From assembly GCF_900188315.1 (NCBI RefSeq), contig NZ_LT897781.1, positions 1,054,001 through 1,118,000 of the forward strand: a stretch of 64,000 nucleotides of DNA, in the 5' to 3' direction. A program made the translations under genes and the position numbers. The stretch comes from Marinobacter sp. es.042 (GTDB taxonomy: Bacteria > Pseudomonadota > Gammaproteobacteria > Pseudomonadales > Oleiphilaceae). The notes below the pieces were generated by a model. It did not search any database. It was not told the DNA's origin and was given only the letters and a program-made list of their open reading frames with translations. How positions within the stretch are numbered: the stretch's first letter is position 1; each line of letters starts with the position of its first letter. This document shows positions 1 through 18,705 of this stretch, piece after piece.

Positions 1-2138
1 TGCTGAATGAGCTCGGCCAGATAAAGCGGGTCTTTATGTCCACCCGGCCGGGCGATGACAAGTCGGCTTCCGGTCATCAATGGCAAGAAGAGTTCGCAAA
101 GGGAGACATCAAAAGTATAGGGAGTTTTCAGCACGACGGAATCGGCTTGATCAAGCGGAAACGTTTCTTTCATCCATAGCATGTGGTTGCATATGGATTG
201 GTGCTCCAACATGACTCCTTTGGGTTTCCCAGTAGAGCCCGAGGTATACATTACATATGCAAGCTGATCTGGTGAGCAGGGCAGATTGGGCCGCGTTTTA
301 CTGAACTGGCTCAAATCGAAAGCATTGCTGTCAATGGCTACGGCTTCGACGTTCCCCGGTACCCGATCTTTCAGAGCCGTCTGGGTCAGGACAAATTTAG
401 CTTTCACCTCGTCAATAATGAAAGCCAACCGATCGTGCGGGTGGTCAGGATCCAATGGCAGGTATGCGCCGCCGGCTTTCAGAACCCCGTTGATTGCCAC
501 CAGCATTGTCAGGGACCGGTCCATTAGAATAGGTACTATGGTTTCAGCCTTTACTCCCTGTGCATTCAACCAGTGCGCCAGGCTGTTAGCCTGTTCGTCC
601 AGCTCCCTATAGCTCAGCTCTTTTCCTTCATAGATCAGTGCGCACCGATCGGGAAATTGATCTACCGCTACTTCGATCAGCCCATGAAGGCTTTTTCTTG
701 TTAGGTCATAGGGGCGGCAGACGGATTCCCACTGCGCCTGGTAGAGGGCCAGATCAGCGCTTCGTAAAATGTTTAGTTGACCTAGTTCTGATTCCGGCTT
801 GGTACTGACGCCTCGTAGCAGCAACAACAACTCGTCCAGTCTACGGTCAATCGTTTCTGTATTCCAAAGGTGAAGGTTGTGTGTGCATTCCATCACTGCC
901 GATTGACTAGAGATGGTGATGTTCAGGTTAAGATCGAAATTCTCGGATACTCTCGGGTTGGACTCGAAGCTCGCATCCAATCCGGTAAATTGAAAATCAG
1001 ATTCATTGGTAAGGTCTACGTTGAACAGGATCGAGACCAATGGTGGCTTGGATGGGTCACGAGATACGCCAAGTGTCTGCAACAAAGTGCCATAGGTTAG
1101 ATATTGGTGCTCGAAGGCATCCAGCATGCACTGTTGTGTTCTATGCAGCAGGGCCCTGAAGGAGTCCTCTCCTGACACTTTGATATGTAGCGGAATGATG
1201 TTGACGCAGTGTCCGACGAGATTATGTTCTTCCTTGGCCATTTGACCGGCGAAGGGAATACCGAGGACGATATCCTCACAGCCGGAAATGCGGTGAATGT
1301 AGCCCGCAAATGCAGCCATCAGTGTTGTGGTAATGGTGCTATTGTTCTTTGCGGAAAGGGCTTTAAGTTCAGCAAGGAGGCTTAAAGGCAAATCTTTGTC
1401 CAGGCGAAAGGCCGAGAAACTGCGACTCAATAGTCGTGGCCTGTCGAACGGTAAATCTAGCGTTGGGATGCCGTCAGCGAACCGCCTTGTCCAGTAATCT
1501 ATGCTCTGCTCCCGTAATGAACGGGTTTCGTCACTGCGTTCCCATTCTGCGTAATCAATGAAGCTGGGCGCGGGTTCGAGTCCCGCTGATAATGAAGGCT
1601 CGCACTCACGCGAGTACAATTCACCCAGTTCACTGGCCAGGATGTATAGCGACCACCCATCACAAACCGAGTGGTGCAATGTCAAAAGCACCCTGGTGTC
1701 GTCTTCGGTGAACCGAATTATGTCGAATTGGGCGAGTGGACCGTTGGCCAGGTCAAAAGGGACGGAGACAGCCCTTTGCGCGAGCAAAGTCAGCTGTTCC
1801 TCTTGGTTTTTAGGCGTCAGTGTTGAAATGTCGTGATGTGTGACAGGGGCGGGTCGATCATAGTAGATAACCATTTCCTTGCCATCATCACTAAAACACC
1901 CTCGAATGGCTTGGTGGCGCTGCCACAGCGCCTCGAGAGCTTTTTTAAGGGCCGGCTGATTGACCCGGCCCTTAAGTCTCAAAAACACCGACTCATTAAA
2001 CGAAGCACTGGCTTCGTCACCGAACTGAGCGGCCAGCCAGACCTCTCGTTGCGATTCGGTAGTCTCAATAGCACCTTCCAGTTCGCCGAACTCGAAGGGA
2101 TCGTGACGGTCAACATTAGACAGTACAGCAGTATTCAT
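1..2138 (-). CDS. Nonribosomal peptide synthetase, C–A module (3' end outside window)
   Basis: This protein adds an amino acid to the chain delivered by the preceding PKS–aminotransferase protein. Translation from the ATG at 2138 gives 712 codons that stay open to the window edge. Residues of about 20–450 form a condensation domain with the active-site motif HHSVCDGWS (HHxxxDG). From about residue 480 an adenylation domain begins, with TSGSTGKPKG and YTFDVS core motifs. The window ends soon after, so only the first three specificity positions (D, V, C) can be read. The start lies 3 bp after the stop of the upstream gene, so translation is probably coupled and the two proteins act in series. 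A carrier domain and a release domain must lie further left. A cytosolic megasynthase is certain; its product is unknown. Confidence 0.93.
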   Translation of the reverse strand, partial: MNTAVLSNVDRHDPFEFGELEGAIETTESQREVWLAAQFGDEASASFNESVFLRLKGRVNQPALKKALEALWQRHQAIRGCFSDDGKEMVIYYDRPAPVTHHDISTLTPKNQEEQLTLLAQRAVSVPFDLANGPLAQFDIIRFTEDDTRVLLTLHHSVCDGWSLYILASELGELYSRECEPSLSAGLEPAPSFIDYAEWERSDETRSLREQSIDYWTRRFADGIPTLDLPFDRPRLLSRSFSAFRLDKDLPLSLLAELKALSAKNNSTITTTLMAAFAGYIHRISGCEDIVLGIPFAGQMAKEEHNLVGHCVNIIPLHIKVSGEDSFRALLHRTQQCMLDAFEHQYLTYGTLLQTLGVSRDPSKPPLVSILFNVDLTNESDFQFTGLDASFESNPRVSENFDLNLNITISSQSAVMECTHNLHLWNTETIDRRLDELLLLLRGVSTKPESELGQLNILRSADLALYQAQWESVCRPYDLTRKSLHGLIEVAVDQFPDRCALIYEGKELSYRELDEQANSLAHWLNAQGVKAETIVPILMDRSLTMLVAINGVLKAGGAYLPLDPDHPHDRLAFIIDEVKAKFVLTQTALKDRVPGNVEAVAIDSNAFDLSQFSKTRPNLPCSPDQLAYVMYTSGSTGKPKGVMLEHQSICNHMLWMKETFPLDQADSVVLKTPYTFDVSLCELFLPLMTGSRLVIARPGGHKDPLYLAELIQ

Positions 2139-2141
2139 GGG

Positions 2142-5100
2142 TCAACCTGTCCATTTCTCAAAATGGTTTTTGTTGTCCTTTGAAGGGACAAACCAGGCGG
2201 ACTTTCCAGATTCGTCTCGCCCAAGGCGGGCACCCTCGACCGGTGGTTTCTGTCCCGGAATGCCTGAAGCGGTATGGGTAACCTGAGTTGTAGGAAAGAA
2301 TCCCATGGTAATCATTTCATCCATTGCTTCTTTGAATGTCTTGACAATTGTGTTGATGTCTTCGTCACCGTGGCTGGTGGTTATAAACATCGGGCGGGCG
2401 TCCCAGACATGAATGCCTTTTTCACGCAGGATGATGTAGATGAGTTCTTCAAAGGCGATATCCTGTGGAATTTTGATCTTGCACATGGACCCGCAATTCT
2501 CGATCTTCAGTGGGGCTCCAACCAGTTGGGCGTATCGGTTGATTTCAGTGACCATCTGTTCAGCACGCTGATTCAGCTGATTCTGAAGGTGCGGCTCGTC
2601 CTGTAGGTGCTGTAAGACGGCAACTGCTGCGGCCAATGTCAGAGGGTGGCGAACAAACGTCCCTGCGAAATAGGTAACACCGACTTCCGGCGTGGAATCA
2701 TCTCCGAATTGCCATTGGCCGCCGTCCAGGGCATCCATGAAACGGGCCTTGCCGGAAATGGCGCCGATGGGGAGCCCGCCCCCTACGATTTTGCCATAAG
2801 TGCAGATATCAGCATGAATATCGTAATACCCCTGAGCCCCTCTTTGGTGAATGCGGAACCCGGTAATGACTTCGTCGAATATCAGAGCAATTTGCTGATC
2901 TGAACAGAGCTTGCGCGCTTCTCTTAGAAAGGCGACAGGTTGTAGGCCCGGATTACGACTCTGAACGGGCTCAACCAATATGGCTGCGATTTCCTCAGCA
3001 TGTTCGCGAATATATTCCAGGGAGGCGTCGGTGCCGTAATCCAGAACGATCATGTTCTCTACAGCGGCATCAGGGATGCCTGCCGCTGCAGGAACGGCAT
3101 AACCCTTGCTGCCCCGCGTAACAATCACGTCGTCGTGGATGCCATGGTAATCGTTTTCGAAGATGACGATTTTTTCCTTGGCGGTTACCGTTCGGGCCAG
3201 CCGCATTGCCCCCAGAACAGCTTCAGAGCCGGTATTACAGAAGGCCACCCGTTCATTACCGGTTACCTGACAAAACAGTCGCGCTGCATCCGCTATCAAG
3301 GGGTGTTGCGGGCCGATCTCGTAACCGATATCCAACTGGCGGGCAATGGCTTCCTTAATAAAGGGGGCAGAGTTACCGAAGAAATTACTGCCAAAACCGC
3401 AGGTCACGTCAATCATTTTACCGCCGTCGATGTCCCAGAGGTATGGCCCCTCTGAGCGTTCCACAACGATCGGGTAGATGACTTCTTTGATGGCATTGCG
3501 AAAGCCGGATACTACTCGCGGGTCCGCTAAATGTTTTCGGTTCTCCTGAGCAAACTGCTTGGATTTACCAAATCGCGTGTTGTAACGCTTTGCGAGTTTC
3601 TCGAAATTCTCGCGCTGTGTGGTTGTCATCTCGTTGCTGCGCTTTACATTGATGCGCGTGCCAGCACCGAAGGGTTTTAGGGTGGCATTCTCCGTGCTAT
3701 GCCCGGCTGGGGAGGTTTTTGCGGGTGGCGAGGCAGGAGTCTGGCCGGCAGGGCCGGATATGGATTGGCCTGGCAATGAAGAAAGCACTGCCAACTGTCC
3801 CTGCATGATTTGCAGTTGTTGTTGGAACAGCGACTGAATGTCATTGGTTGATGTTGATGTTGATGTTGATGTTGCTGCTGGTGAGGGCGTGCCTGCCGTA
3901 ATGGGCGCCACGGACGCAGTCGGAGCGGATGCTGGAGTTGACGCCGGAGCCGGAGCCGTATCTTCCCCTGTGGCACCTTCTTTGATTAGGTAGTCCGCGA
4001 GTTTATTGAGATTGCCATGGTCGTTAAGCAGCTGCTTGAAGGTTATGCTGACCTTGAACTTTTTCTTCAGTTTCAACGTCGACTGTGTGAGTAGCAGCGA
4101 ATCGAGACCGAGTTCGAAAAATGTGGCATCGCCGTCGGCCGCAGATAAGTCGATGCCCGAGATGTCTGTGAATAGTGCGCGCAATTTTTCTAAGGTGACT
4201 TCTTTCATGTTTTCTGGCCTAGCCAAGTTTGGTGTTGTGGGGGGCGTCGGGGCTGTCGAGACTCCAGGCTCAATAACGTGTGTGCGGTGCTGGAATGGAT
4301 ACCCGGGTAGCTTGGCCCTTAATGCTGGGTCTGGGGTGCCGCAGGGCCAGCTAATGGTCAGGCCGCTGGCCCAGGCTTGGCCAAGTCCGCGACTGAAAGA
4401 CTGGACATCCTTTTCAGGCTGCCCGGCCTCTGGCACAAGCGGTATCAGAGCAAGATCGGGCTTTTCGGCCAGAGTCTGCAGAGCCATCCCGGATACCGTG
4501 CCTTGTGGCCCGCACTCCAGCAGGATCAGGTTTTTCAGTGCACCGATGGTTTCTACACCCTTGCGGAACTGAACCGGTTGCCGAATCTGACTAGCCCAGT
4601 ACTGAATATCGGTTGCCTGTTCATCCGTTATCCAATCTCCGGTGACGCAGGAGATAAACGGTATCTGTGGCGGATTTGGCACGACATCCTTCAGTGCCCG
4701 CGCAAAGGCATCACTGGCGGCATCCATGGACGGTGAATGAAAAGCATGTGAGGTATTGAGCGAGCGAAACCGGATAGCGTTCTGTTCCAGTATCTGGCTA
4801 ACGGCCGCGATGCTGTCGTGGCTGCCCGAGAGAGTGCAGGAGTCTGCCGTGTTTTCCGCCGCAACCACGACGTCACTGGTTAGCAATGAGTTAAGTTCTT
4901 CTATGCTTGCACGTACCGCCAGCATAGCCCCGGATGGTTGTGCCTTCATGACCTCACCTCGGGTGATGACTACCCGGATGGCGGTTGGCAGGTCGAACAC
5001 ACCGGCTATGGTGGCGGCAACCAGTTCCCCAATGCTATGGCCGATAGCCGCCTTGGCTCTGACGTCCAAGCTTTCCAAGGCAGAGGCCAGTGCGTATCCC

Positions 5101-8100
5101 ACGCAAAACAGACTGATTTGTGTTTTCTGGGTGTCTTTTAACGGGTCATCGGAAGTGAATATCAGCGACTTGATATCCAGCGAATGGCTTCCCTGCAAAA
5201 TGTCGGCACAGGCATCAAATGACTCACGAAATGCGGGGATGGCGGCATATAGAGATTTACACATGCCGGCAACCTGGCTGCCCTGGCCGGGGAACGCATA
5301 CACGACGGATGGGGCAGTGAAGGCCGCATCCGTATCCTCTGCGTCCTCGATCATTGAGGAGAACTCATGGGCGCTAAAATGGTGTGGCAGCGCCTTCCGA
5401 TAACGGAATTGCCGACGATTTCGAATCAGGAGGCAGGCAATGTCCGCCAGTTTGCCTTCATTACCCTCCACCTCGAGCAGTGACCGATATGATGCTAATA
5501 CAGCAGAAAGAGCTTGTCCGGAATGAGCGCTGAAGCAGAGTGGTACCCAATCAGGGGTCAGTTTCTTGTCGGGCAGCGTTAACGTTCTGGTGCCTTTGAG
5601 CAGGATATGAGCATTAGTACCGCCAATGCCAAAGGAACTGACGCCAGCAATGCGTTCTTCCTTCGGTTCCGGCCAGCCACTGGTGCTATTCGCGATAACA
5701 AAGGGAGTTTGCTCCAGTTTCAGTTCTGGGTTAGGTGACTCAAAATTGATGGATTGGGGGATTTCACCGCGGTCAATAGCTAGTGCGCACTTAACCAGGC
5801 CGACCACACCTGCAGCCGCTGTAAGATGACCGAAATTGCTTTTCACCGACCCCAGTTTACAGAACTGCTTTTTGCTGGTTTGCGTTGCAAAAGCGGCACT
5901 TAACGCCGATACCTCAATCGGATCACCAATCGGGGTTGCGGTTCCGTGGGCCTCGATATAGCGGATTCTTTCGACATCGAGCCGGGCATCACTAATGGCA
6001 GAGAGGATAACGGACTGCTGTCCCTGTACGCTCGGGCCCGAAAAACTGCCTTTCTCGGCACCATCGTTATTGACAGCCAGGCCAGTGATAGACGCATAAA
6101 CGCAGTCTTGATCTTTCTGGGCGTCGTCCAATCGCTTCAAAACGATCATCCCGCCACCATCACTGAATACGGTTCCGGAACTGTCCTTGTCAAAAGGTCG
6201 GGTATGTCCGTCCCGGGTATAAATGCTGCCTTCCTGGTGGGTGTGGGGCTGCTGTTGCGGGAATGTCAGTGAGGCGCCCCCTGCAATAGCGATGTCACAG
6301 CGTCCTTGGCGAATGGCTTCTGCTGCCTCGGCGACCGCTACGAGAGAGGTGGAACACGCGGAGTGGATGCTCAGAGCGGGCCCGACAAGGTTGAGTTTGT
6401 GGGCCAAGCGCGTGGCGGCATAGTCTTTTTCATTAGCGACCATAGCCTGCAGGGCGCCAAAGTCTTCCAGCTTTTCCTCGTTTTTAAGCACGTTGTTGAG
6501 GTAATAGGTATTGTTGCCGACGCCGCAATAGACTCCAATTCGTCCGGCAAACTGTTCTGGGTCATACCCGGCGTTTTCCAGTGCGTGCCAGGCAAGTTCC
6601 AGTAACAACCGCTGCTGGGGATCTATAAACTGCGCTTCAATAGGGTTGATGCCAAAAAACCGCTCATCAAATCCAAGGGGGTCGTCCAAAATGCCGCGCG
6701 CGTTGACGGTGCCGTCGTTGCTGGTTGGTGAGAAAAAGGTAATAGTTTCCTTACCTTCCTTCAGGTTCTGCCAAAAACTATCTAGCGTGTCTGCTCCGGG
6801 AACTCGAACAGACATCCCAATAATGGCTACATCTCTTGAGGAGTTTGCGTTCCTGGCGGGTGTTGAGCCATCGGTCCGGGCGGAGGTCGCAACAGCCTGG
6901 CGTGTTACAACATAGTCAAGAAATTGACCCAAACTCCGGTATTGAAACAGTGAGTAGACTGGGACAGTAAGGCCCTCGTGCTCATAGAGCGCGGCGGCGA
7001 TTCGGTTGGCCGTTAGCGAATCCATACCCTGGTCTTGAAGGTTATCCTCTTCCGACAGGTCAGGGTGATTGAGTTCTGTCCTGATCAGTTCCAACACCCT
7101 TCGTGAAAGAACTTCCTTGTTAATAGGCGTCTCGGCCGCGGGCTGCTCAAGCTTCTCGACCATAGATTTCCGGTCTATTTTTCCAGAGGGAGTCTTTTGG
7201 AGTTCCTCAAGCCAGTGGAATCGACTGGGAATCATGTAGCCTGGAATTGACTTTGCCAGGCTCCGTCTCAAGTCTGCATCTGGTTCGGCGGCGCCTGATT
7301 TCGAGGTTATAAAGGCCACGAGCCTTTTTTGCCCGCGGACCTCTTCTACTGCAACGGCTGCTTCTTTGACCAGTCCTGTGTCGAGTAGTGTCGCTTCCAC
7401 TTCGCTGAGTTCGACACGATAGCCGTTAATTTTCGTCTGATCGTCGATACGGCCAAGGTATAGGAGTTCTCCTTCCCCGTTCTGGCTTACGAGATCGCCG
7501 GTGCGGTAGGCCCTTTTGCTCTCCTCGGTACCCGATAAGTTAACGAAGCGTTGCAGAGTTTGATCCGGGTTGTTGATGTAGCCATGCGCCAATACCGGGC
7601 CGGCAATATAGAGTTCACCAACTTCGCCGGCAGCAACCGGTTGTTGCTGTTCGTCTAGTATCAGTAACTCCGCGTGGTCAATAGGCTTGCCAATTGGGGG
7701 TAGCTTGGGCCAGTGATCGGCAGGCCCGCCCAGCCTATATTCACTGACTACATGGGTCTCACATGGACCGTATTGATTGCTAAGCTTAGCGCCCTTCATG
7801 GCGTTGAAGGCAGTGCGTAGCTCCTCGCTAATAACAAGTTGCTCTCCCGCGGTAATAATGTCCTTAAGTGAAGTGGGATAGAGGTTCAGTTTATTGGCCC
7901 ACATCACCAGTTGAAGCAGCGCAATATAAGGCAGGAAAATCCGTTCTATCTGTTGCTCATTAATAAAGTCGAGCAGTCTGTGAAAATCTTGTTTAAGTTC
8001 ATTGTCGATCAGATAAAGAGTTCCACCCTGGGTCAAGGTGGAAAAGATCTCCTGAAACGACACATCGAAACTCAAGGCAGAAAATTGAAGAGTCCGATAG

Positions 8101-8672
8101 CGCGTGTTTTGCGGATACTGGTTATTTTGCCAGTTGATCAGGTTATCCAGGGTGCCGTGGTTCATCAGGACACCCTTTGGTTTTCCGGTCGAGCCAGAGG
8201 TATAGATTACGTAGGCATTGCTATCTTGTGTTATCGGGAAAGGTTCTGGGCGCTCTTTCGGCGTCTGGTCAAATGAAATCTCGCGTAAATCCAGATGAAT
8301 CCCGACCGGGGACCGAAAATCGTTATTGTCGGTAATGGTCATTGCGACTTCGGCATGGCTGACCATGTAGTTGAGCCGCTCCTTGGGATACACAGGGTCC
8401 AGAGGCAGGTAAGCGCAACCGTGGCGGAGAATGGCGATCATGGCGGTAATCGCGAGTGCTCTATCCTGGGTATGGATGGCGATAGGTGCATCCTGCCCAA
8501 TGCCTGAGTTGGCAATATGCTGCTGTATAAGAAATGCGTTGTTGTTCAACGTTTCATAACGGGTTGTTTTGCCGCCTGACCAAAGGGCTGCACTGTCAGG
8601 AAATGTCAGGACTGTATGTTCAAACTCTTGCAGGAAGCTGGATGCGTGGGAGGGATACTCATTAACATTCAT
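2142..8672 (-). CDS. Hybrid NRPS–PKS with aminotransferase domain (A–T–KS–AT–ACP–AMT)
   Basis: The protein has about 2,176 residues and builds a beta-amino acyl unit. Domains in order: adenylation (about 20–500, with TSGSTGKPKG and YRTGDL), carrier (Ser near 553 in GMDSL), ketosynthase (about 615–1040; Cys774 in SACSTS, His910, His950), acyltransferase (about 1124–1420; GHSIG Ser1214, HAFH motif typical of malonyl-CoA), carrier (Ser1526 in GLDSL), a Ser/Thr/Ala/Pro linker, and a class III PLP aminotransferase (about 1684–2130; Asp1934, Lys1962). There is no ketoreductase, so the beta-keto group is left for transamination, as in the mycosubtilin/iturin and McyE enzymes. ATG 8672 is preferred over the adjacent GTG 8675 because AAGGAAGG lies upstream at good spacing. 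There is no N-terminal C domain, so this A domain probably starts the chain. Domain calls are firm; the product is inferred. Confidence 0.95.
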   Translation of the reverse strand: MNVNEYPSHASSFLQEFEHTVLTFPDSAALWSGGKTTRYETLNNNAFLIQQHIANSGIGQDAPIAIHTQDRALAITAMIAILRHGCAYLPLDPVYPKERLNYMVSHAEVAMTITDNNDFRSPVGIHLDLREISFDQTPKERPEPFPITQDSNAYVIYTSGSTGKPKGVLMNHGTLDNLINWQNNQYPQNTRYRTLQFSALSFDVSFQEIFSTLTQGGTLYLIDNELKQDFHRLLDFINEQQIERIFLPYIALLQLVMWANKLNLYPTSLKDIITAGEQLVISEELRTAFNAMKGAKLSNQYGPCETHVVSEYRLGGPADHWPKLPPIGKPIDHAELLILDEQQQPVAAGEVGELYIAGPVLAHGYINNPDQTLQRFVNLSGTEESKRAYRTGDLVSQNGEGELLYLGRIDDQTKINGYRVELSEVEATLLDTGLVKEAAVAVEEVRGQKRLVAFITSKSGAAEPDADLRRSLAKSIPGYMIPSRFHWLEELQKTPSGKIDRKSMVEKLEQPAAETPINKEVLSRRVLELIRTELNHPDLSEEDNLQDQGMDSLTANRIAAALYEHEGLTVPVYSLFQYRSLGQFLDYVVTRQAVATSARTDGSTPARNANSSRDVAIIGMSVRVPGADTLDSFWQNLKEGKETITFFSPTSNDGTVNARGILDDPLGFDERFFGINPIEAQFIDPQQRLLLELAWHALENAGYDPEQFAGRIGVYCGVGNNTYYLNNVLKNEEKLEDFGALQAMVANEKDYAATRLAHKLNLVGPALSIHSACSTSLVAVAEAAEAIRQGRCDIAIAGGASLTFPQQQPHTHQEGSIYTRDGHTRPFDKDSSGTVFSDGGGMIVLKRLDDAQKDQDCVYASITGLAVNNDGAEKGSFSGPSVQGQQSVILSAISDARLDVERIRYIEAHGTATPIGDPIEVSALSAAFATQTSKKQFCKLGSVKSNFGHLTAAAGVVGLVKCALAIDRGEIPQSINFESPNPELKLEQTPFVIANSTSGWPEPKEERIAGVSSFGIGGTNAHILLKGTRTLTLPDKKLTPDWVPLCFSAHSGQALSAVLASYRSLLEVEGNEGKLADIACLLIRNRRQFRYRKALPHHFSAHEFSSMIEDAEDTDAAFTAPSVVYAFPGQGSQVAGMCKSLYAAIPAFRESFDACADILQGSHSLDIKSLIFTSDDPLKDTQKTQISLFCVGYALASALESLDVRAKAAIGHSIGELVAATIAGVFDLPTAIRVVITRGEVMKAQPSGAMLAVRASIEELNSLLTSDVVVAAENTADSCTLSGSHDSIAAVSQILEQNAIRFRSLNTSHAFHSPSMDAASDAFARALKDVVPNPPQIPFISCVTGDWITDEQATDIQYWASQIRQPVQFRKGVETIGALKNLILLECGPQGTVSGMALQTLAEKPDLALIPLVPEAGQPEKDVQSFSRGLGQAWASGLTISWPCGTPDPALRAKLPGYPFQHRTHVIEPGVSTAPTPPTTPNLARPENMKEVTLEKLRALFTDISGIDLSAADGDATFFELGLDSLLLTQSTLKLKKKFKVSITFKQLLNDHGNLNKLADYLIKEGATGEDTAPAPASTPASAPTASVAPITAGTPSPAATSTSTSTSTNDIQSLFQQQLQIMQGQLAVLSSLPGQSISGPAGQTPASPPAKTSPAGHSTENATLKPFGAGTRINVKRSNEMTTTQRENFEKLAKRYNTRFGKSKQFAQENRKHLADPRVVSGFRNAIKEVIYPIVVERSEGPYLWDIDGGKMIDVTCGFGSNFFGNSAPFIKEAIARQLDIGYEIGPQHPLIADAARLFCQVTGNERVAFCNTGSEAVLGAMRLARTVTAKEKIVIFENDYHGIHDDVIVTRGSKGYAVPAAAGIPDAAVENMIVLDYGTDASLEYIREHAEEIAAILVEPVQSRNPGLQPVAFLREARKLCSDQQIALIFDEVITGFRIHQRGAQGYYDIHADICTYGKIVGGGLPIGAISGKARFMDALDGGQWQFGDDSTPEVGVTYFAGTFVRHPLTLAAAVAVLQHLQDEPHLQNQLNQRAEQMVTEINRYAQLVGAPLKIENCGSMCKIKIPQDIAFEELIYIILREKGIHVWDARPMFITTSHGDEDINTIVKTFKEAMDEMITMGFFPTTQVTHTASGIPGQKPPVEGARLGRDESGKSAWFVPSKDNKNHFEKWTG
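3847..3876. repeat. Hexanucleotide tandem repeat in the PKS linker
   Basis: Four exact copies of GTTGAT and a fifth variant (GTTGCT) lie in the coding sequence for the Ser/Thr linker between the second carrier domain and the aminotransferase. On the coding strand the unit encodes Ser-Thr dipeptides. Loss or gain of a unit keeps the reading frame, so the repeat could change linker length without breaking the enzyme. Confidence 0.85.
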
Positions 8673-8740
8673 CACACTGCCTTCCTTATGCCGTTGTCCA
8701 TAAGTACATCTTGGCTGACTGTCTCGTTTATGGGGCAGTG

Positions 8741-9055
8741 TCAGCCCAGGAAGTTCGCTGCTCGTTTGTTACATTGTGTAAGTGAGCATAGCATCGCAGA
8801 GAACACCGCGCTAATCCACGGGAGCATCCAAAATCGATCGCCATAAATTCGGATTAGGACCTGACACGACATCCGCCGGTCAGACTTACTTAGGCCCAGA
8901 CAGGATAAGTGGCCTGAACCATCTGAATATTCCTGAATGTGTGGTTTCTTCGAAGTATGACTACTGAGGTATTTTATGGCGGCGTTATCGCGGCATTTCT
9001 GAGAAACTTCAATTAAAAGTGGGGGGAGGGTTTGCGCGCTAATGCTTTCGGTCAT
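8741..9055 (-). CDS. Doubtful 104-residue ORF upstream of the megasynthase
   Basis: The ATG at 9055 has an AGGA nine bases upstream, and the frame runs co-directionally into the megasynthase gene with a 68-bp gap. The first 25 residues (TLPPLLIEVSQKCRDNAAI) look faintly like the N-terminus of an AMP-forming acyl ligase. The rest is rich in Cys, Met and Trp and matches no family I recognise. It could be a decayed remnant of an adenylating enzyme, a genuine small protein, or chance. The ribosome-binding site is the best argument for expression. Confidence 0.25.
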   Translation of the reverse strand: MTESISAQTLPPLLIEVSQKCRDNAAIKYLSSHTSKKPHIQEYSDGSGHLSCLGLSKSDRRMSCQVLIRIYGDRFWMLPWISAVFSAMLCSLTQCNKRAANFLG

Positions 9056-9246: not shown

Positions 9247-9876
9247 TTGGAAAACTTGAAGCGCTTATTGAAACCACTGGTGCGTTTGTCACGCCGTACT
9301 ATTGAGGCGAAGTCCGGAATTCTGATGGCTCAGGCTGTTTGTGGAGCGCGGAAAGGGGAATCTTGCGATGGCAAGTTGGCACCGCCAGTCAGCAAGGTTG
9401 GCGGGGTAAGGGCCGGCTTCCCTCTCTCTCAATCGGCCTTCGAGAAGAGGGTTGAACAGGGCAACGAACTCTACGAACTGGTGATTGATAACACGCCTGT
9501 ATCCTATGGCTGGGTGGCCGGGGGCGGGGCGCGTGTTGGTGTGCTCCACAACATTGAGTTAACGGTCCCGGATCAGGCTATTTATGTCTGGGACTGCGCC
9601 ACAGCTCCTGCCTTCCGTGGACACGGGCACTTCCAGAGCTTGCTTAAAGCTATTTTGGCCGCCCACGTTAGCGGCACCACAGCGTTAGTCGCCGTAGACA
9701 GCAAAAACGACGCTTCCAGAACAGCCCTCAGGAAGGCAGGATTTCGGCCAATGTTTAGCTATTTTAGTATTCGAATATTCGGCTACGTTATTTTTAGCGC
9801 TGTGGTGGAGGCTGGAGAGTTGAAGAAAGCCCAGCCCCGCTTCGACGTTCTAACTGCTCAGATGAATCAAGCCTGA
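9247..9876 (+). CDS. GNAT-family N-acyltransferase
   Basis: A 209-residue cytosolic acyltransferase, expected to move an acyl group from acyl-CoA (or acyl carrier) to an amine. The acetyl-CoA loop is seen at about residue 124 (RGHGHFQSLL), and the C-terminal GNAT signature at about 154 (NDASRTALRKAGF). The first 60 residues are basic and outside the fold. The start is a TTG at 9247, chosen because GGAGTGGAGG lies just upstream at ideal spacing; no other start fits as well. It opens the rightward cassette beside the assembly line, so its substrate may be the nonribosomal product or a surface glycan. The fold is clear, the substrate is not. Confidence 0.8.
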   Translation: MENLKRLLKPLVRLSRRTIEAKSGILMAQAVCGARKGESCDGKLAPPVSKVGGVRAGFPLSQSAFEKRVEQGNELYELVIDNTPVSYGWVAGGGARVGVLHNIELTVPDQAIYVWDCATAPAFRGHGHFQSLLKAILAAHVSGTTALVAVDSKNDASRTALRKAGFRPMFSYFSIRIFGYVIFSAVVEAGELKKAQPRFDVLTAQMNQA

Positions 9877-10040: not shown

Positions 10041-10895
10041 ATGAGTTTATTTGACCTGGCCGGGCCGGACCAGATTGAAACGATCCCGTTTCCCACAGAT
10101 AAAGATGGACTGATCCGTTTTATTCGGCGTCGTCAGCCCCTTTTACTGAGCGGAGTAAGGGAAGCTTTGCCGTTTACCGAAGGCTTGAACTACAGCTATT
10201 TCAAGAGTTCTCTGAAATCCATACGCATCCAAAGACAGTCCGAGGATGGTATTTATCATTATCTCGGGTTCGAGCGTATTCCCATGGAGGATTTTGATGA
10301 GGTAATGAATACCACGGGTAACGGCTATGCTCTGGAACCCCTTCGGGGGCAAGGGGTTTCTGACGATTTGCCAGCTGGCCTTTCTGTTACCTTGCCGTCG
10401 TTCATTCCTGAGTCTGCCTTCCGGGTCTCCAACTTGTATATTGGGCCTGGCAAGAATAAATCCCTCTTGCATTACGATGAGACCCATAGTCTGCTCATGA
10501 TGTTGGAGGGCCGAAAACGATTCGTACTTTTCCCGCCCGATCAGAGCGACTGTATGTATCCATACAGCCCATTCAGTATCAGGGCATTGCTCGAAAACCG
10601 TGTCGTTGACAGCAAAATAGACTGTCAGAACCCGGATGTGAAACGCTTTCCAAAACTCGGCCAGGCGCATGGAATTACGGGCTGGCTGGAAGAAGGGCAG
10701 GCGCTTTTTATTCCCGCAGGCACGTGGCATTTTATTGAGGCCGAGGGACGGAATGTATCGGTGAACTACTTCTGGCTTCAGAACAGTGTTCGTGATTGGT
10801 TGCATCAGCCCTTGCTCGATTTTTGGCTAAAACGCCGCGCAATCGATGTCCTGGACAAACTTCGCAAGATTAAGCACAAGTTGTCTGCAGCCTGA
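10041..10895 (+). CDS. JmjC/cupin-8 Fe(II)/2-oxoglutarate oxygenase
   Basis: A 284-residue protein of the cupin-like/JmjC family, which hydroxylates protein or small-molecule substrates using Fe(II), 2-oxoglutarate and O2. The metal-binding triad is visible: His144 and Asp146 in LLHYDETHS, and His230 in FIPAGTWHF. Length and motif spacing fit the factor-inhibiting-HIF-like bacterial group. AAGGA about ten bases upstream supports ATG 10041. It lies between a GNAT gene and a FemAB-like gene, which suggests a tailoring role on the same product. Hydroxylation of an amino acid side chain is a reasonable inference; the substrate is unknown. Confidence 0.82.
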   Translation: MSLFDLAGPDQIETIPFPTDKDGLIRFIRRRQPLLLSGVREALPFTEGLNYSYFKSSLKSIRIQRQSEDGIYHYLGFERIPMEDFDEVMNTTGNGYALEPLRGQGVSDDLPAGLSVTLPSFIPESAFRVSNLYIGPGKNKSLLHYDETHSLLMMLEGRKRFVLFPPDQSDCMYPYSPFSIRALLENRVVDSKIDCQNPDVKRFPKLGQAHGITGWLEEGQALFIPAGTWHFIEAEGRNVSVNYFWLQNSVRDWLHQPLLDFWLKRRAIDVLDKLRKIKHKLSAA

Positions 10896-10926: not shown

Positions 10927-12057
10927 GTGGAATTAAGAGTTCTGAGGACTGAGGACGAGTTCAACCAGATAAAACCACAATGGGATAGCCTCCTGTCCAG
11001 TCTGGACAGCATTCCTCTGCCGTTGACTCATGAATGGTTGCTCGCCTGGTGTCGAGCCTTTTCCCTAAACATGCAAATGGAGTTCAGGTGCGCCTATCTG
11101 GAGGGTGCTCTGGTAGGTTTTGCTCCTCTATGCCGGGTTCGGGAACGATACCGGGGTATACCAGTGACAGTTCTCAAACTCGCGGTTAACGGGCACACGC
11201 CATTTTCGGACGTTATCGTTCATCCCGACCTGGTCGGCGAAGAACGAGGGCAGGCTTATCGTAGGCTTACCAGTCTAGGCGACCACGAACTTGGACAGTT
11301 TTTCAAACTCCACCGGAATGGCGCTCTCCTCCAATTTCTCATTGATGGGCCTGAATCGAGAAATACGTTCGGCGCTCGCCGCATAGGGCTGAAGCCCAGC
11401 CTGAAAACGCCGGTCATAGAAATTGATCAGCCATGGGAGACGTTTTTCAATACGCGGCCTCGTGCGCTAAAGAAAAGCCTGAGACACAAAATGAACCGGT
11501 TTCGGAAGCAACCGGGGTTTTCGATTACTCTGGAGCAGATTAGTGCGCCTGATCAGGCGATTGTTGAGGAACTGATTGATGTTTCAGCAAAGAGCTGGAA
11601 GGCATCAATTGGCAATGATTTGAAGTCTCATCACGGTAGCCGAGTTTTTCTCCTGAATCTGATTGAGTTATTGGGGAAAGAGGGCGTGGTGAGCGCATGG
11701 ATTGCTCGTGATGGCGATCGAGCAATAGCGTTCGAGCTTCATCTGCGATACGACGGTATTGTTTATCCAATTCGGGCCGATTACGACGATTCGTATAAAG
11801 CCTTTTCTCCTGGCTCCCTTCTGGAGTATTCGGCTCTTAAATATCTTTTCGATTCGGGTGCAGCCAAGCAGTATTACACCTGTGCGGATGATTACTGGTA
11901 TCTGAGTAATTGGACGTCCGAATATGAGGAATACTGCAATGTCGAATGTTTTGGAGGCAGTCTCCGATTAAGATGTTTGTACTTTCTGGAGTACCGTCTG
12001 ATACCGCTGGTGAAAAAGTCCATTCGGAAACAGGGAAAGACTGCAAAGGCTGTTTGA
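10927..12057 (+). CDS. FemAB/BcsL-like GNAT acyltransferase
   Basis: A 376-residue protein of the CelD/BcsL group (double GNAT fold, related to FemAB aminoacyl transferases). The conserved C-terminal half, about residues 160–330, has the usual pattern RALKKSLRHKMNRF and a GNAT core (AWIARDGDRAIAFELHLRYDG). The start is GTG at 10927 with a weak GGGAA upstream. Relatives of this family often sit in exosortase and polysaccharide loci, where they are thought to acylate glycans or add amino acids. Here the gene follows the JmjC oxygenase by 31 bp and precedes a formyltransferase by a few bases, so the three are probably one operon. The transferred group cannot be read from the sequence. Confidence 0.78.
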   Translation: MELRVLRTEDEFNQIKPQWDSLLSSLDSIPLPLTHEWLLAWCRAFSLNMQMEFRCAYLEGALVGFAPLCRVRERYRGIPVTVLKLAVNGHTPFSDVIVHPDLVGEERGQAYRRLTSLGDHELGQFFKLHRNGALLQFLIDGPESRNTFGARRIGLKPSLKTPVIEIDQPWETFFNTRPRALKKSLRHKMNRFRKQPGFSITLEQISAPDQAIVEELIDVSAKSWKASIGNDLKSHHGSRVFLLNLIELLGKEGVVSAWIARDGDRAIAFELHLRYDGIVYPIRADYDDSYKAFSPGSLLEYSALKYLFDSGAAKQYYTCADDYWYLSNWTSEYEEYCNVECFGGSLRLRCLYFLEYRLIPLVKKSIRKQGKTAKAV

Positions 12058-12075
12058 AGCATGGAGAAAAAGCGA

Positions 12076-12966
12076 ATGCGAACACTGGTTATCGTCAGTG
12101 GTGACAAGTCCGATATTTTTTTTGCGAATCAGCTGGCGAAGTCTCTTACTGTCGTGGGAATTGTGGTCGAAAACCAGACACCAAAGAGGGATAGCTCACC
12201 GCTGGTTAGCAGGGCTCGCAAATATATTTCAAGGCCAGGGCTTTTTTTCAAGAAGGTCTTTGAGGTACTGGACAGGAAACTTATAGAACCGTATCAGCCC
12301 TACAATGACCCTTCCAATTCATTGGATTTCGGGCAGGAGGGGCTCGCGCTCGAAACTTTCGAAGGCATTGAGATTCTGCATACCAGTGGAGTCAACGCGA
12401 TTAATAGCCCGGAGTACGTGAGCTGGATTCGGGATAGAGAACCAGATGTTATCGCCGTTTGTGGCGCTTCATTACTAAAACGAGACCTGCTTCAGGTGCC
12501 GACGCACGGCGTCCTGAATTTACATGGCGGTCTCTCTCAATTTTATCGAGGTTTATATACCACAGACTGGGCGGTGCACAACGGGGAGCCGGAATGCATT
12601 GGTGCAACTGTTCACTTCGTTGCAGAGGGTGTGGATGATGGTGACGTCGTTTATCAGGGTCGCCCGGTCATTGAGCAGGGTGATAATCCTAACCGGCTCT
12701 ATGAAAAGGTGGTGAGGCTTGGTGTAAAAATGATGATCCGTGCGATCCAGGACATAGAGCAAGGGAACTGCAATTCAGTACGTCTGGAAAGAAAAGGGCG
12801 CCTGTATCTCTACAAGGATTTTGATGTAAAGGCAAAGCGGGCGACATGGCGCGGGATCGAAGGCGGGGTTATAGAGCAGTACCTCTCAGACCAGCAACGC
12901 CGGGATGAGAGAGTAAGGGAAACCCTCATAAATGATTTTAGCCTTTTGAACCAGTCCACCGTCTGA
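12076..12966 (+). CDS. Methionyl-tRNA formyltransferase-like N-formyltransferase
   Basis: A 296-residue enzyme expected to transfer a formyl group from 10-formyl-tetrahydrofolate to an amine. The catalytic Asn–His–Asp set is present: Asn148 and His150 in LNLHGGLSQFYRG, and Asp188 in GVDDGDVV. The motif order matches sugar-amine formyltransferases and NRPS formylation enzymes rather than true Fmt, which has a longer C-terminal OB domain. ATG 12076 has GGAG nine bases upstream and begins directly at the first beta strand; ATG 12061 is the alternative. It ends 5 bp from the converging exosortase gene. It may formylate the nonribosomal product or an amino sugar. Confidence 0.85.
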   Translation: MRTLVIVSGDKSDIFFANQLAKSLTVVGIVVENQTPKRDSSPLVSRARKYISRPGLFFKKVFEVLDRKLIEPYQPYNDPSNSLDFGQEGLALETFEGIEILHTSGVNAINSPEYVSWIRDREPDVIAVCGASLLKRDLLQVPTHGVLNLHGGLSQFYRGLYTTDWAVHNGEPECIGATVHFVAEGVDDGDVVYQGRPVIEQGDNPNRLYEKVVRLGVKMMIRAIQDIEQGNCNSVRLERKGRLYLYKDFDVKAKRATWRGIEGGVIEQYLSDQQRRDERVRETLINDFSLLNQSTV

Positions 12967-12971
12967 CTGAG

Positions 12972-14474
12972 CTATCGATCGGCCTGCTCAAGAAATGCCG
13001 TAAATGCACCTCTTTGGTCGTCGCAGTCGGCAATTTGTTCGCTGTTACATCTGCCCGCCAGCGCCCAGAGGGCACCTCTACTGTCGCCTTTAATTTTGTT
13101 AAGAGCTCCCGTTAGCTTTGCTTCCATCCGAGAATCTGTAAGCGTATCCCCAACCTCATACCAGGACCAGATGATGACCTGTTCGTTGTTCTCACGACGC
13201 TGAATAATAGTCTCGTTCACCGTTGAAAGATTTTGCAGGTAGCCGTTTTCCAATAGCCTTTTCTGCTCTGATACTAATTGCCATTCTTTGCGGTTGAATA
13301 GGGAATTGCCATAGAAAATCAATTCCTTGTTTTGGGTTTGGATGCGATATCCGATGATCTGCAGCTGGACTTGCTGAAGCTCTGGGTTTACGTAGACACC
13401 GCCGAGGTTGATGTCGGGCCTGGTGTATTTCGGAGTCCAGATATTAGCGTGTTGCAGAGGACCACTCCAGCCGGGTACTGCCCGGAACAGAGAGGGGTTC
13501 CACTCTTGGGCAACCCTTTCGGTTTCTGCTTGCAGGGCCAGCGGCAAGATGGCCGGCCAAATCAGTAAGACTGATGCAATGGTCGGCCAGAAGAGGGAGG
13601 GGCGTTTCGGCTGATCTGTCGAAGTATATGTCGATGCTTGTGGGCTATTGCTGTTTGCGTGAGGCTCGATTCGCCCGGAAATGAAGAACAAGGGAACCAA
13701 TGTAAAGATCAGAAAAACAACCCACCCAAAAAGCTCATGATCTTCGACTAGTGACGTCTCCATCTCTGTGTAATGGCCGGCTGCAATGATGCCGAATACC
13801 CGAACCCAGTTGGAGAGCATCGATAGAGCGCCAGCGATAACAACAAGAAAAAAGGTCGAGACATATTTTTGGTAATACAGTTGGCCATAAAAGGCACCCA
13901 GGAACAGGGCAACCATGAGGTAGCGAACACCACTGCAACCGTCCTCTACCAGAAATGTTCCTACATCCAGGATAATGTAAAACTCCTGAATCTTGGCTTG
14001 TATGCCAACTCCTTGCAGAAGCAGATTGTTAAAGAAAACTGTTATGTGCTGAAGGATCGGTGATAGATCATCCCATATGGGTACCGCAAAAATCAGTAGC
14101 ATAATTGGGCCGCCAGCAGTCCTGAGGAAGCCCTTTCCCCAGACTGACCAGCCCCAGAACACAATCATGACGGGGACGAGTAACAATCGGAATACACGGA
14201 TGTCAGCAGCCTGTGAGAGCATTAAGACAATGCTTGCGCCAGCCAGGAAAAAAAGACCCAGTGGCGACCCGCTGATCTTTAGGTTGGCAAGGGTCTTCCT
14301 CCTGAGGAACAGGAGGTAACAGGAGCCGGCGAGAACCAGGAAGCCGTGTGTGTAGATAATGGAATCGGACCAGAGGTAGAAGAAGTCCCTCCACTCAGCC
14401 CACAAACCGACTGCAAAAAGCGGTATCGACAGTAGCCAAAGGTGCTGTCGGTAAAAGCTCGAAGCGTAGTTCAT
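12972..14474 (-). CDS. xrtA: Exosortase fused to an EpsI (DUF3485) domain
   Basis: A 500-residue inner-membrane transpeptidase-like protein that recognises the C-terminal PEP-CTERM signal of exported proteins. About eight membrane segments fill residues 10–270. The catalytic Cys180 (EDGCSGVRYL), Arg225 (LSNWVRVFGI) and His246 (VEDHELFGW) are all present. Residues of about 330–490 form a periplasmic EpsI domain, often a separate gene. ATG 14474 is chosen because it lies 10 bp after the prsT stop with AGGGA overlapping that stop; a longer reading from 14684 would overlap prsT by 200 bp. The neighbours prsT, prsR and prsK fix it as the XrtA type. The usual exopolysaccharide genes are not next to it. 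Confidence 0.93.
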   Translation of the reverse strand: MNYASSFYRQHLWLLSIPLFAVGLWAEWRDFFYLWSDSIIYTHGFLVLAGSCYLLFLRRKTLANLKISGSPLGLFFLAGASIVLMLSQAADIRVFRLLLVPVMIVFWGWSVWGKGFLRTAGGPIMLLIFAVPIWDDLSPILQHITVFFNNLLLQGVGIQAKIQEFYIILDVGTFLVEDGCSGVRYLMVALFLGAFYGQLYYQKYVSTFFLVVIAGALSMLSNWVRVFGIIAAGHYTEMETSLVEDHELFGWVVFLIFTLVPLFFISGRIEPHANSNSPQASTYTSTDQPKRPSLFWPTIASVLLIWPAILPLALQAETERVAQEWNPSLFRAVPGWSGPLQHANIWTPKYTRPDINLGGVYVNPELQQVQLQIIGYRIQTQNKELIFYGNSLFNRKEWQLVSEQKRLLENGYLQNLSTVNETIIQRRENNEQVIIWSWYEVGDTLTDSRMEAKLTGALNKIKGDSRGALWALAGRCNSEQIADCDDQRGAFTAFLEQADR

Positions 14475-14484
14475 ACCCGAATTT

Positions 14485-17181
14485 TTATCCCTGGTCACCG
14501 AACTTTTCGAGCACTCTCTTCGCATCCGCATTCTTTCCAGCGGCTCGGTAAGCTTCTGCGAGGTGCAGGGCGATCTCCTCAGATTCCGGCTCAAGTTTGT
14601 GCGCTTTTTCCAACAGCGGAATACTCTCGCTGGTGTTACCGGATTTGAGTTGAATCCAACCGTAGGTATCGGCGATGGCGCCATTGTCTGGGTTTAGCTC
14701 ATAGGCACGGCGGGCAAGCTCGATGGCTCTGCTATCTCCATCCTCATGATAGATCCAGGCAAGGTTGTTCAGAACAACGACATTTTCGGGGTTCGACTCA
14801 AGCAGTTTTTCATAGCTCGTCCGGGCGGCGCTGTCGTCCCCCTGACTCTGCTGGATAAGAGCTTTGGTGAATAGCAGCTGGTCATTTCCGGCATAACTCT
14901 CAGTGGCAGATTGCAGAAATGTGAGTGCCTCTGCTGGCTGCCCGGCATTCTGTAGATTTCGGGCATAGCTATTTGCCAATTCCGGCGAGGATTCCTTCTC
15001 CAGTGCCAGTCGATAAAGTTCAACTGCTTGCTGATAGTTCTCCTGATTCTCGAAGTAGGCGGCCTCCGTCGCATAGGGTTTGGCGGAATCAGGGTGCTGC
15101 TGCTTTACCTCCTGAAGAATCTTTCGGGCGTCGTTGTCTCTGGCTTCTGAAAAAGCCTCTCTGGCGGCCTGAAGTGCAATATCTTCATTGGCAGGAAACA
15201 GAACGCGAGCTCGCTCCAGAATCTCGGAGGCTCTTTCAGATTGTCCTGCTGACCGCAATGCCATGGGAATGTTGTTGTAGATGCTTGCTACAAGAGAGGA
15301 AGCCGGTGATGGCGTATTCTGTTCTTTTCGTTCCAGCAGCGCCGCAGTCAATTCGTCTGCTTCTTTCTGATCACCATTTCTCAGAGCTGACTCGAGAAGT
15401 AATAGACGAGGTCCCGTTGCCTCGGGCTGGCTCTCGAGAATCTCGCGCATGAATTGGTCTGTTTCCTCACGAGGTTGGCTCGCTGCCAGGCCCTGGAGCG
15501 CCAGACGATTGTCGGGGGAAATGCGTACGGCCTCCCGGAAATGCTCCCGGGCTTGCTTGAGTTGATCCTGTTCTGCTGCGAGTTTTCCCAAGGCTATAGA
15601 AGCTGCAGGGGATTCGGGTTCCACAGATTTTGCTCGGGAAAAGTAATCGCGCGCGGCCTGGAGATTTTGCTCTTGTGCAGCAAGATTGCCTCGGGTGATT
15701 AGTGCGGCACCACTTTCCGGGAGCTCCGCTACCCAGAGATCTGCCGTCTCTATGGCAGCGTCCAGCTGCCCCGACTGGACTTGTGACTGAATGATGATGC
15801 TTCTTGCCTGCTCAATCTGGGGAGCATTCTCGCGCAGATAGCTGGCTTGTTTTATCGCTTTTTGATATTGCCCTCGCTGAACCAGATAGGCAGCGTAACG
15901 TAATCTGAGATCGTGATTCTCGGGATTGCCGGCCAGAGCCTGTTCCATCAGCTCCTCTCCGGACTCGAAATCACCGTTTGTAAGCGCTGCGATAGCCACC
16001 ATTGCCAGGGTGTTGGGGTCGGAGTCCCTGTTCTCCAGCTTGTCCAGAATCTCCTGCGCACCTGCGGGATTTCGCTGCTGGAGTCTGGTTGCGGCAAGGA
16101 GTTTGCTGGCGGTTTCCGACCTTCCGGCTTCTGCGATTGGTGTCAACAGGGCTTCTGCCTCATCGACGCGACCTTGCCTGAATCGCACCAGGCCAAGCAT
16201 AAGCGCTGTTTGCTCATGGTTCGGTGCCTGGTTGAGTACCTCTTCCAGATATCGGGAGGCCTCGTCGAGATCGCCTTGGTCAAGGGCGTCCTGGGCGGCA
16301 ATCAGATTGCTCTTGATTGTGCCCGGACCAGACTTGGCCAGGATCTCCTCGTACACATACGCTTCCGATTGCTTGCCTTGAGCTCGTAGAACACGGATGA
16401 GGGAGGATATCGTGGCGTATTTGCGCTGGGTCATTACATCGTATTGGCCAATGTCCTCGAGAGCGCGAATGTAGGCGTCTTCCGCCTTCTGCCATTCTTC
16501 ATTGGTGTCGGCCAGCTGTGCTTTCCAAAGCCACAGTTCGGTGTTTTCCGCATCGAGGTTTTCGGCTTCGCCAATCAGGGATTGGGCTTTGGCAACATCG
16601 CCTTTGGCGAACGCAGTTTTTGACAGGCCAACCAGGGATTCAACATCCGTGGGGTCAATGTTCTGTGCGTTACTGAAAGCCCTTTCTGCTGCATCAAGTT
16701 GGTTGGCAGCAAGATGCGTCTTGCCCCTGAGCAGCGCGGCTTTCGTTTCCATTGGCCGATCAGAACTTGAGAACTCACTCATTGCGGAGAGTGCGTCTTC
16801 AAATTCACCCTGCAGCAAATTTGCTTCCGCGCGGATCAGCAGGGCCCGGTTCTTGACCTTTGCATCCACGTCGCCTGATCCGAGCTTATCCATGACCTGG
16901 TCTAGTTGGCGTTCCGCATTGAAGGCATCTCCAGCTTGAAGGAGATTATCGAGGATAAGGAAATAAGGCTCGGTTTCTTGCGGTTTGAGCTCGATCGCAC
17001 TTCGTGCCTCCAGAGTGCTGGCTTTGAGCTCGCCCTGGCGTTGGAAAAACCGGGATTGATCAATATGGCTCAGATACTGGATGTCTTCCTGACTCATCTC
17101 ATTCTCTTCGCTGCAACCAGCCAAACCGAAGACGAGGGCAACGGAGAGGATGGTGGCACCTACAAACGAAGTGGACTTCAT
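14485..17181 (-). CDS. prsT: PEP-CTERM system TPR lipoprotein PrsT
   Basis: An 898-residue exported scaffold protein. The N-terminus has a signal peptide ending in the lipobox LAGC (Cys near 23), so it is lipid-anchored. The rest is a long array of tetratricopeptide repeats with canonical pieces such as NPENVVVLNNLAWIYHEDG and ADTYGWIQLKSGNTSESIPL near the C-terminus. Length and position directly before the exosortase are typical of PrsT. It is thought to act in assembly or secretion of the exosortase-linked polysaccharide. It is transcribed after prsR with a 46-bp gap. Confidence 0.93.
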   Translation of the reverse strand: MKSTSFVGATILSVALVFGLAGCSEENEMSQEDIQYLSHIDQSRFFQRQGELKASTLEARSAIELKPQETEPYFLILDNLLQAGDAFNAERQLDQVMDKLGSGDVDAKVKNRALLIRAEANLLQGEFEDALSAMSEFSSSDRPMETKAALLRGKTHLAANQLDAAERAFSNAQNIDPTDVESLVGLSKTAFAKGDVAKAQSLIGEAENLDAENTELWLWKAQLADTNEEWQKAEDAYIRALEDIGQYDVMTQRKYATISSLIRVLRAQGKQSEAYVYEEILAKSGPGTIKSNLIAAQDALDQGDLDEASRYLEEVLNQAPNHEQTALMLGLVRFRQGRVDEAEALLTPIAEAGRSETASKLLAATRLQQRNPAGAQEILDKLENRDSDPNTLAMVAIAALTNGDFESGEELMEQALAGNPENHDLRLRYAAYLVQRGQYQKAIKQASYLRENAPQIEQARSIIIQSQVQSGQLDAAIETADLWVAELPESGAALITRGNLAAQEQNLQAARDYFSRAKSVEPESPAASIALGKLAAEQDQLKQAREHFREAVRISPDNRLALQGLAASQPREETDQFMREILESQPEATGPRLLLLESALRNGDQKEADELTAALLERKEQNTPSPASSLVASIYNNIPMALRSAGQSERASEILERARVLFPANEDIALQAAREAFSEARDNDARKILQEVKQQHPDSAKPYATEAAYFENQENYQQAVELYRLALEKESSPELANSYARNLQNAGQPAEALTFLQSATESYAGNDQLLFTKALIQQSQGDDSAARTSYEKLLESNPENVVVLNNLAWIYHEDGDSRAIELARRAYELNPDNGAIADTYGWIQLKSGNTSESIPLLEKAHKLEPESEEIALHLAEAYRAAGKNADAKRVLEKFGDQG

Positions 17182-18601: not shown

Positions 18602-18705
18602 GACAGCAGTAAATCCTTTTTTATAGATATGGTTCCTAACCGTGATTCTTAACTGAACATTGGCACTTTGCAATGGTGCTTTTGGAAGATTGCCCCTCGC
18701 GACGG

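Follow-up and report, generated by a model that had tools for sequence, protein, structure and literature searches.

A PKS–aminotransferase and NRPS gene pair as a candidate exchangeable cassette of the exosortase A exopolysaccharide locus in Marinobacter

The DNA that we analysed, hereafter the window, is a stretch of 64,000 nucleotides (G000:C1:1054001-1118000) from the 3.94 Mb genome of Marinobacter sp. es.042. At its left end lie a PKS–aminotransferase (PKS-AMT) gene and the beginning of an NRPS gene, which runs past the window edge and, read genome-wide, encodes a 2150-aa C-A-T-C-A-T protein. Genes of an exosortase A (XrtA)/PEP-CTERM locus follow to the right, and the features are, in window coordinates:

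1..2138, minus strand: 5' part (C-A of C-A-T-C-A-T) of the 2150-aa NRPS, from ORF and Pfam; whole gene at G000:C1:1049686-1056138
756..2072, minus strand: C1 condensation domain with HHSVCDG intact, from Pfam and motif reading
2142..8675, minus strand: PKS-AMT gene, 2177 aa, A-T-KS-AT-ACP-AMT, from ORF and Pfam, motifs intact
2145..2234, minus strand: C-terminal tail of the PKS protein, conserved as GARLGRDxxGxxAWFVP, in 33/33 split loci and missing in 4 fused ones
2391..3476, minus strand: AMT domain, class III, MycA-like, from Pfam, structure match and motifs
3987..4190, minus strand: ACP domain, from Pfam and motif
4365..5303, minus strand: AT domain with HAFH motif, from Pfam and motifs
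5472..6836, minus strand: KS domain with C-terminal extension, from Pfam and motifs
6891..7115, minus strand: T1 carrier domain, ends approximate, from Pfam and motif
7179..8624, minus strand: A1 adenylation domain, code DVQFIAQVV (proline-like), from Pfam and code reading
9247..9876, plus strand: GNAT-family protein (PF00583), divergent to the PKS, in 9/15 PKS loci
10041..10895, plus strand: Cupin_8/JmjC_2 protein, going with PKS-AMT cassettes (14/15 vs 0/15)
10927..12057, plus strand: GNAT (PF13480) protein, going with PKS-AMT cassettes (14/15 vs 0/15)
12061..12966, plus strand: formyltransferase (PF00551), going with PKS-AMT cassettes (14/15 vs 0/15)
12972..14684, minus strand: exosortase A (XrtA) with EpsI domain, given as the longest ORF, true start probably further down (TIGR03109, 223.8 bits, cut-off 208)
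14485..17181, minus strand: PrsT, XrtA/PEP-CTERM TPR protein (TIGR02917, over cut-off)
17228..18673, minus strand: PEP-CTERM-box response regulator (TIGR02915, over cut-off)
18706..20841, minus strand: PrsK histidine kinase (TIGR02916, over cut-off)

The initial annotation had read the gene pair as A-T-KS-AT-ACP-AMT followed by C-A, opened by an amino-acid-loading A domain and without a ketoreductase, and this reading is borne out by the ORFs, Pfam and the active-site motifs. The PKS-AMT frame opens with GTG at 8675, the ATG at 8672 being the next codon. Pfam matches on the protein comprise AMP-binding (residues 18-366) and AMP-binding_C (425-499), ketoacyl-synt with its C-terminal domain (614-979), Acyl_transf_1 (1125-1437), two PP-binding domains (the best at 1496-1563, the first with its carrier Ser near residue 551) and Aminotran_3 (1734-2095). 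KR is not among the ten Pfam families reported for the protein, and KS-AT-ACP stands directly N-terminal of the AMT with no KR in the module. The A1 domain aligns with amino-acid A domains and has Asp235; the KS keeps ACSTSL/HGT/NFGH, the AT keeps GHSIG with HAFH, both carrier serines are present, and the AMT retains YGK (YGKIVGGG), which includes the PLP-lysine motif, and DE. The nearest solved structure to the AMT is that of MycA (6kfm/6kfr first) at 371 bits, compared with 198 bits for the best glutamate-semialdehyde aminomutase, which upholds the earlier proposal of a MycA-type beta-amino-acid module. The genome contains no frameshift that would break the line. The same gene pair recurs, with 69-76% identity in relatives within Marinobacter and some 40% in other phyla, and is therefore not a chance arrangement; the nearest named PKS relatives are five Marinobacter loci (69-73% identity). 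The assembly line is thus real, intact-looking and of a known kind. In one relative (G128; L095, about 8140) the PKS is divided between T and KS into two overlapping frames. A 104-aa ORF occupies 8741-9055 (minus strand) of the window, between the GNAT gene and the PKS.

With the mycosubtilin synthase MycA and its kind (iturin, McyE) the line shares the KS-AT-ACP-AMT order, the closest AMT structure and a beta-amine formed before a C domain. The MycA line presumably starts with an acyl ligase, whereas here the first domain is an amino-acid-loading A domain and not an acyl or fatty-acid ligase; moreover, AMT and C are on separate proteins and a ketoreductase is lacking. The PKS stop codon (TGA, 2144-2142) is followed by a 3 nt gap and the ATG of the NRPS gene at 2138, exactly the 3 bp spacing first noted. 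Two other early claims found no support in the loci examined, namely that the split between AMT and C is peculiar and that ARLGRDESGKSAWFVP is an AMT–C linker; nor is the domain order rare. AMT and C lie on separate genes in 33 of the 37 loci examined and are fused in 4, and ARLGRDESGKSAWFVP belongs to a GARLGxDxxGxPAWFV-like tail that, read by eye, forms the PKS C-terminus in 33/33 split loci and is missing from 4/4 fused ones. When an ACP-AMT query was used (7157 of 7999 candidates scored), A, KS, AT, carrier and AMT models were carried by 108 of the best 120 of these 7157 homologues (our own count, the window's protein included). Since the order is common and the gene break is old, neither is special to this line. 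The conserved tail may be a docking element.

Downstream of the NRPS, on the same strand, the operon continues with hyd2, hyd1, Acyl_transf_3, Cupin_8 and 4'-phosphopantetheinyl transferase genes (gaps of 80, -35, 5, 55 and 60 bp). The operon Cupin_8 protein (L022 10375-11196, L037 1837-2703) is 50% identical to a Calothrix cluster protein and only 23-27% identical to those matched in other Marinobacter cassettes, which suggests a separate exchange of this gene. Beyond the operon lie genes for a glycosyltransferase, an ABC protein, a DegT protein, more glycosyltransferases, a polysaccharide deacetylase and a Wzy_C protein, with Wzy_C, glycosyltransferases, deacetylase and DegT all within 20 kb of the operon. 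On the other side of the PKS, XrtA, PrsT, the response regulator, PrsK and a PEP-CTERM protein (PEP_CTERM domain, 29.6 bits, cut-off 16) all exceed their curated cut-offs in one locus. The region resembles the XrtA/PEP-CTERM loci with ligase, decarboxylase and hydrolases 1/2 (TIGR03098-TIGR03101) in having XrtA, PrsT, the regulator, PrsK and homologues of both hydrolases. It differs from them in that the hydrolases score below the curated cut-offs, the decarboxylase TIGR03099 is not over its cut-off anywhere in the genome, and a PKS-NRPS stands with the hydrolases.

To place this arrangement in the genus, we searched 124 Marinobacter genomes, in which XrtA exceeded the family cut-off in 30 and a PKS homologue was found at E<=1e-200 in 18. 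PKS and XrtA shared a contig in 15 genomes and were 1.1-5.6 kb apart in 15/15; the remaining three PKS genomes (G134, G136, G138) are fragmented, with a completeness of 82-88%. When the sample was restricted to a completeness of 90% or more and a contamination of 5% or less, the PKS was present in 15/29 genomes with XrtA vs 0/81 without (Fisher p 7e-11, relatedness not corrected). We then read the slot up to 20 kb downstream of XrtA in 29/30 genomes, and in G000 by way of the loci L010 and L037; L011, L013, L014, L020 and L012 share coordinates with G094, G160, G016, G154 and G138 and were counted once. Across the 30 XrtA loci, the slot held a type I PKS in 11 (69-76% identity, the window's own included), a type II PKS in 4 (38-39% identity), a C-A-T-C-A-T protein with hyd2 and hyd1 but no PKS in 2, and another NRPS further on in 4, while in 9 there was no NRPS within the stretch read (in one of these the contig ends). 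Hyd2 and hyd1 come after the PKS-NRPS in 15/15 PKS loci, so that a cassette of this NRPS type plus the hydrolase pair occupies 17/30 XrtA loci. By comparison, cassette-type domains were found beside 0/20 weaker exosortases (downstream side only), one of which, L096, resembles XrtA and narrowly misses the cut-off of 208 with 206.8 bits. The far border of the slot read DegT-GT-deacetylase-GT in all 11 second stretches fetched. In four cassette-less XrtA loci (L077, L078, L082, L083) a different NRPS lies past the DegT genes; one of its codes is of valine type, and the other is of glycine type in L078 and L082 and glycine-like in L077 and L083.

Formyltransferase, PF13480 GNAT and cupin occur in 14/15 PKS loci (missing in G151) and in 0/15 other XrtA stretches, the two PKS-less cassettes included, and this distribution suggests that their substrate is the part derived from the PKS. 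G154 and the four type II stretches gave no match to the acyltransferase. In addition, the C1 motif is intact in 15/15 PKS loci (11 type I and 4 type II) and altered in both PKS-less cassettes, to HHSVCDH in G021 and HQSVCDG in G152; such alteration would be expected if C1 served only to accept the PKS product, although the cases are few (n=2). At the place of the PKS, the G021 cassette (L088 2467-3879) encodes, on the opposite strand, a 470-aa protein whose ATP-grasp match is weak and does not reach the Pfam cut-off.

The type I and type II PKSs that share the slot are 38% identical. In an AMT tree of 50 sequences, type I grouped with Cellvibrio, Oleiphilus and Aliikangiella proteins (100/100) and type II with G219, G307, G056 and G047 of other families (100/100). 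A single clade uniting both types was rejected (p-AU 0.0007), from which it follows that the slot was filled at least twice. In the C-like domain that ends type II lines, no HHxxxDG was found in the matched part. Taken together, these patterns suggest that the XrtA exopolysaccharide locus harbours the assembly line as an exchangeable cassette. The line is of a known kind, but for its context in the XrtA locus, with the associated tailoring genes and the Cys/Arg pair of hydrolases, we found no description; nor did any account of a cluster with the same order of domains stand out in the open-licence literature.

Across the order (381 genomes), an AMT match at E<=1e-100 was found in 12 genomes, of which 10 lie outside Marinobacter (the two genome draws of the order differ slightly). 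Four of these 10 (G166, G167, G219, G307) carry PKS and exosortase on one contig at a distance of 13-40 kb, with exosortase scores of 185-197 bits that fall short of the XrtA cut-off. In G056, G047 and G170 the two are on different contigs (the PKS contigs being short in G047 and G170), and no exosortase is listed for G207, G295 and G418. Conversely, 42 genomes of the order outside Marinobacter have XrtA over the cut-off; condensation domains are present in 20 and absent from 22, and none lies near XrtA among the matches listed for those 42, the nearest being 171 kb away (G269).

Of the two alpha/beta-hydrolases, hyd1 carries Cys at its nucleophile elbow, as GLCSG or GLCAG, in 120/120 listed of 252 homologues and in 22/22 locus rows, and hyd2 has an Arg there in 120/120 listed of 859 homologues and in 19/19 locus rows. 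Both have the alpha/beta-hydrolase fold of the exosortase A-associated hydrolases 1 and 2 (TIGR03100, TIGR03101), scoring below those cut-offs (84.6 vs 168.45 and 110.7 vs 202.75 bits). A structural model of hyd1 (pLDDT 86.6) is alpha/beta-hydrolase-like, with Cys115 between strand and helix and His256 after a late strand; it fits lipases, esterases and some thioesterases, lipases and esterases leading the fold matches. Cys-nucleophile NRPS thioesterases are known from obafluorin and sulfazecin. Hyd1 is alike in having a Cys at the elbow of an alpha/beta-hydrolase tied to an NRPS, but hyd1 and hyd2 are separate proteins, and the Cys-type enzyme is paired with an Arg-type partner. The pair also follows a PKS-NRPS in two Corallococcus genomes and another myxococcote, none of which showed an exosortase, and thus goes with the assembly line and not with XrtA. 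No hyd1/hyd2 match was found in the stretches of G166, G167, Parapedobacter, Calothrix and the plasmid loci, so the pair is not the only way out. In G307 (L154-L156) one exosortase region has two PKS-NRPS sets and two hyd2-hyd1 pairs. No thioesterase is among the Pfam matches of the 2150-aa NRPS, and we propose that hyd1 releases or transfers the peptide.

What the line makes can be predicted from its adenylation codes, which were read with GrsA numbering (checked as identical to 1amu 234-335) as DVQFIAQVV for A1, DVCHLTLVH for A2 and DILQLGMVW for A3. A1 is one position off the DVQxxAHVV type, with Gln and not His at position 322, while A1 of distant relatives (myxobacteria, two Bacteroidota, Calothrix) reads DVQF[IV]AHVV. 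Other relatives differ: Parapedobacter has DAQFTGVIW, and the codes of the plasmid loci resemble those for valine or threonine. In the PDB, the code region of one Corallococcus A1 matches only TycB and GrsB at E<=1e-15, whose first modules we take to be proline-activating. We likewise take DILQLGMVW for a glycine code and DALWLGGTF for a valine code, and type II lines have codes of the valine and glycine type. In a published table, valine is predicted for DALFIGGTFK (PMC3547906). The A1 code is thus predicted to be near-proline and that of the last A domain (A3) of glycine type. The HAFH motif of the AT is, we assume, the mark of a malonyl-specific enzyme, and with the proline-like A1 code it leads to 3-amino-3-(pyrrolidin-2-yl)propanoyl as the predicted first unit. 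Of the two products initially offered, a 3,4-diamino acid or, from a cyclic starter, a ring-bearing beta-amino acid, the A1 code favours the cyclic option.

The pathway that best explains these genes would, as we infer it, begin with A1 loading proline or a close analogue on T1. KS-AT-ACP would add one malonate, and the AMT would turn the beta-keto group into an amine, giving the 3-amino-3-(pyrrolidin-2-yl)propanoyl thioester. C1 of the NRPS would join this diamino-acyl unit to a residue X, set by A2, and C2 would join glycine, after which Cys-type hyd1 with its Arg-type partner hyd2 would take the peptide off the thioesterase-less NRPS. Formyltransferase, GNAT and cupin may tailor the PKS-derived part. 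If the line is an exchangeable insert in a biofilm polysaccharide region, the peptide may belong to the biofilm and not be an ordinary free antibiotic; it would then enter the XrtA matrix, where its most probable form is an acyl group on the polysaccharide that the flanking glycosyltransferases make. That an exchangeable PKS-NRPS cassette makes a proline-derived diamino-acyl peptide for this purpose is our tentative reading, to which we give slightly less than an even chance. Within it, decoration of the polysaccharide is favoured, although no gene is known here that would join peptide to sugar, and a free matrix-associated peptide is nearly as likely. Our reading is also weakened by the 22/42 XrtA genomes elsewhere in the order that have no condensation domain, by the nine Marinobacter XrtA loci with no NRPS in the stretch read, by the relatives in which the hydrolase pair had no match, by the exosortase-less myxobacteria that have PKS-NRPS and hydrolases, by the lack of an acyltransferase match in G154 and the type II stretches, by Gln at A1 position 322 with an A2 code that has no assignment, and by the sub-cut-off scores of hyd1 and hyd2.

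Alternatively, the cassette may make a free secreted peptide, be it a signal, a metallophore or a competition factor, whose only tie to the matrix genes is shared regulation, for instance via PrsK and the response regulator; this is a serious contender that we nonetheless consider doubtful. It would agree with the PKS-NRPS and hydrolase pair of the exosortase-less myxobacteria, but the seven-gene operon contains no peptide exporter, and the ABC protein next to it has as its best NCBIfam match PglK (a lipid-linked-glycan flippase), below its cut-off. Craig et al. (2011), as cited in PMC7293339, reportedly linked N-acyl amino acid synthases to PEP-CTERM/exosortase systems. There, too, an amino-acid-derived small molecule is made beside exosortase and exopolysaccharide genes, by an acyl synthase and not by a multi-module PKS-NRPS as here. 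According to the citing report (PMC7293339), N-acyl amino acid synthase genes adjoin PEP-CTERM/exosortase genes and stieleriacines act in biofilms, which also speaks for a free peptide.

Returning to decoration of the polysaccharide, it is conceivable, if somewhat unlikely, that cassettes are swapped like serotype genes, each making a different beta,gamma-diamino-acyl-(X)-Gly, proline- or valine-derived, that the hydrolase pair (one Cys-type, one without an elbow nucleophile) moves to the polysaccharide. The chemistry itself could also differ, with another A1 substrate or a diamino thioester that cyclises on the line, so that the product would be something other than a linear diamino-acyl peptide derived from proline. 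This would be in line with position 322 being off the proline-type code in the Marinobacter type I A1 domains read and with the A2 code having no residue assignment; we regard it as unlikely, since 8/9 A1 code positions agree with the code of the relatives and C1 keeps its motif wherever the PKS is present. Finally, that the XrtA-DegT slot is a recombination hot spot for unrelated clusters, with no functional tie to the polysaccharide, would account for the varied contents and the pair of PKS lineages found at one place but is improbable, as the contents are not arbitrary (NRPS type and hydrolase pair in 17/30, none beside 20 other exosortases) and PKS and exosortase share a stretch in four genomes of other families too.

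If the peptide ends on the polysaccharide, as we favour, modular peptide synthesis would be linked with biofilm-matrix chemistry, the charge of the matrix could be varied by swapping assembly lines, and the exosortase-associated hydrolase families would gain a suggested function. A peptide that stays free would still be one of diamine type for which we found no description, with a clear genetic handle, and the two natural cassettes that lack the PKS and have an altered C1 motif offer a ready test of the mutual dependence of both halves of the line.
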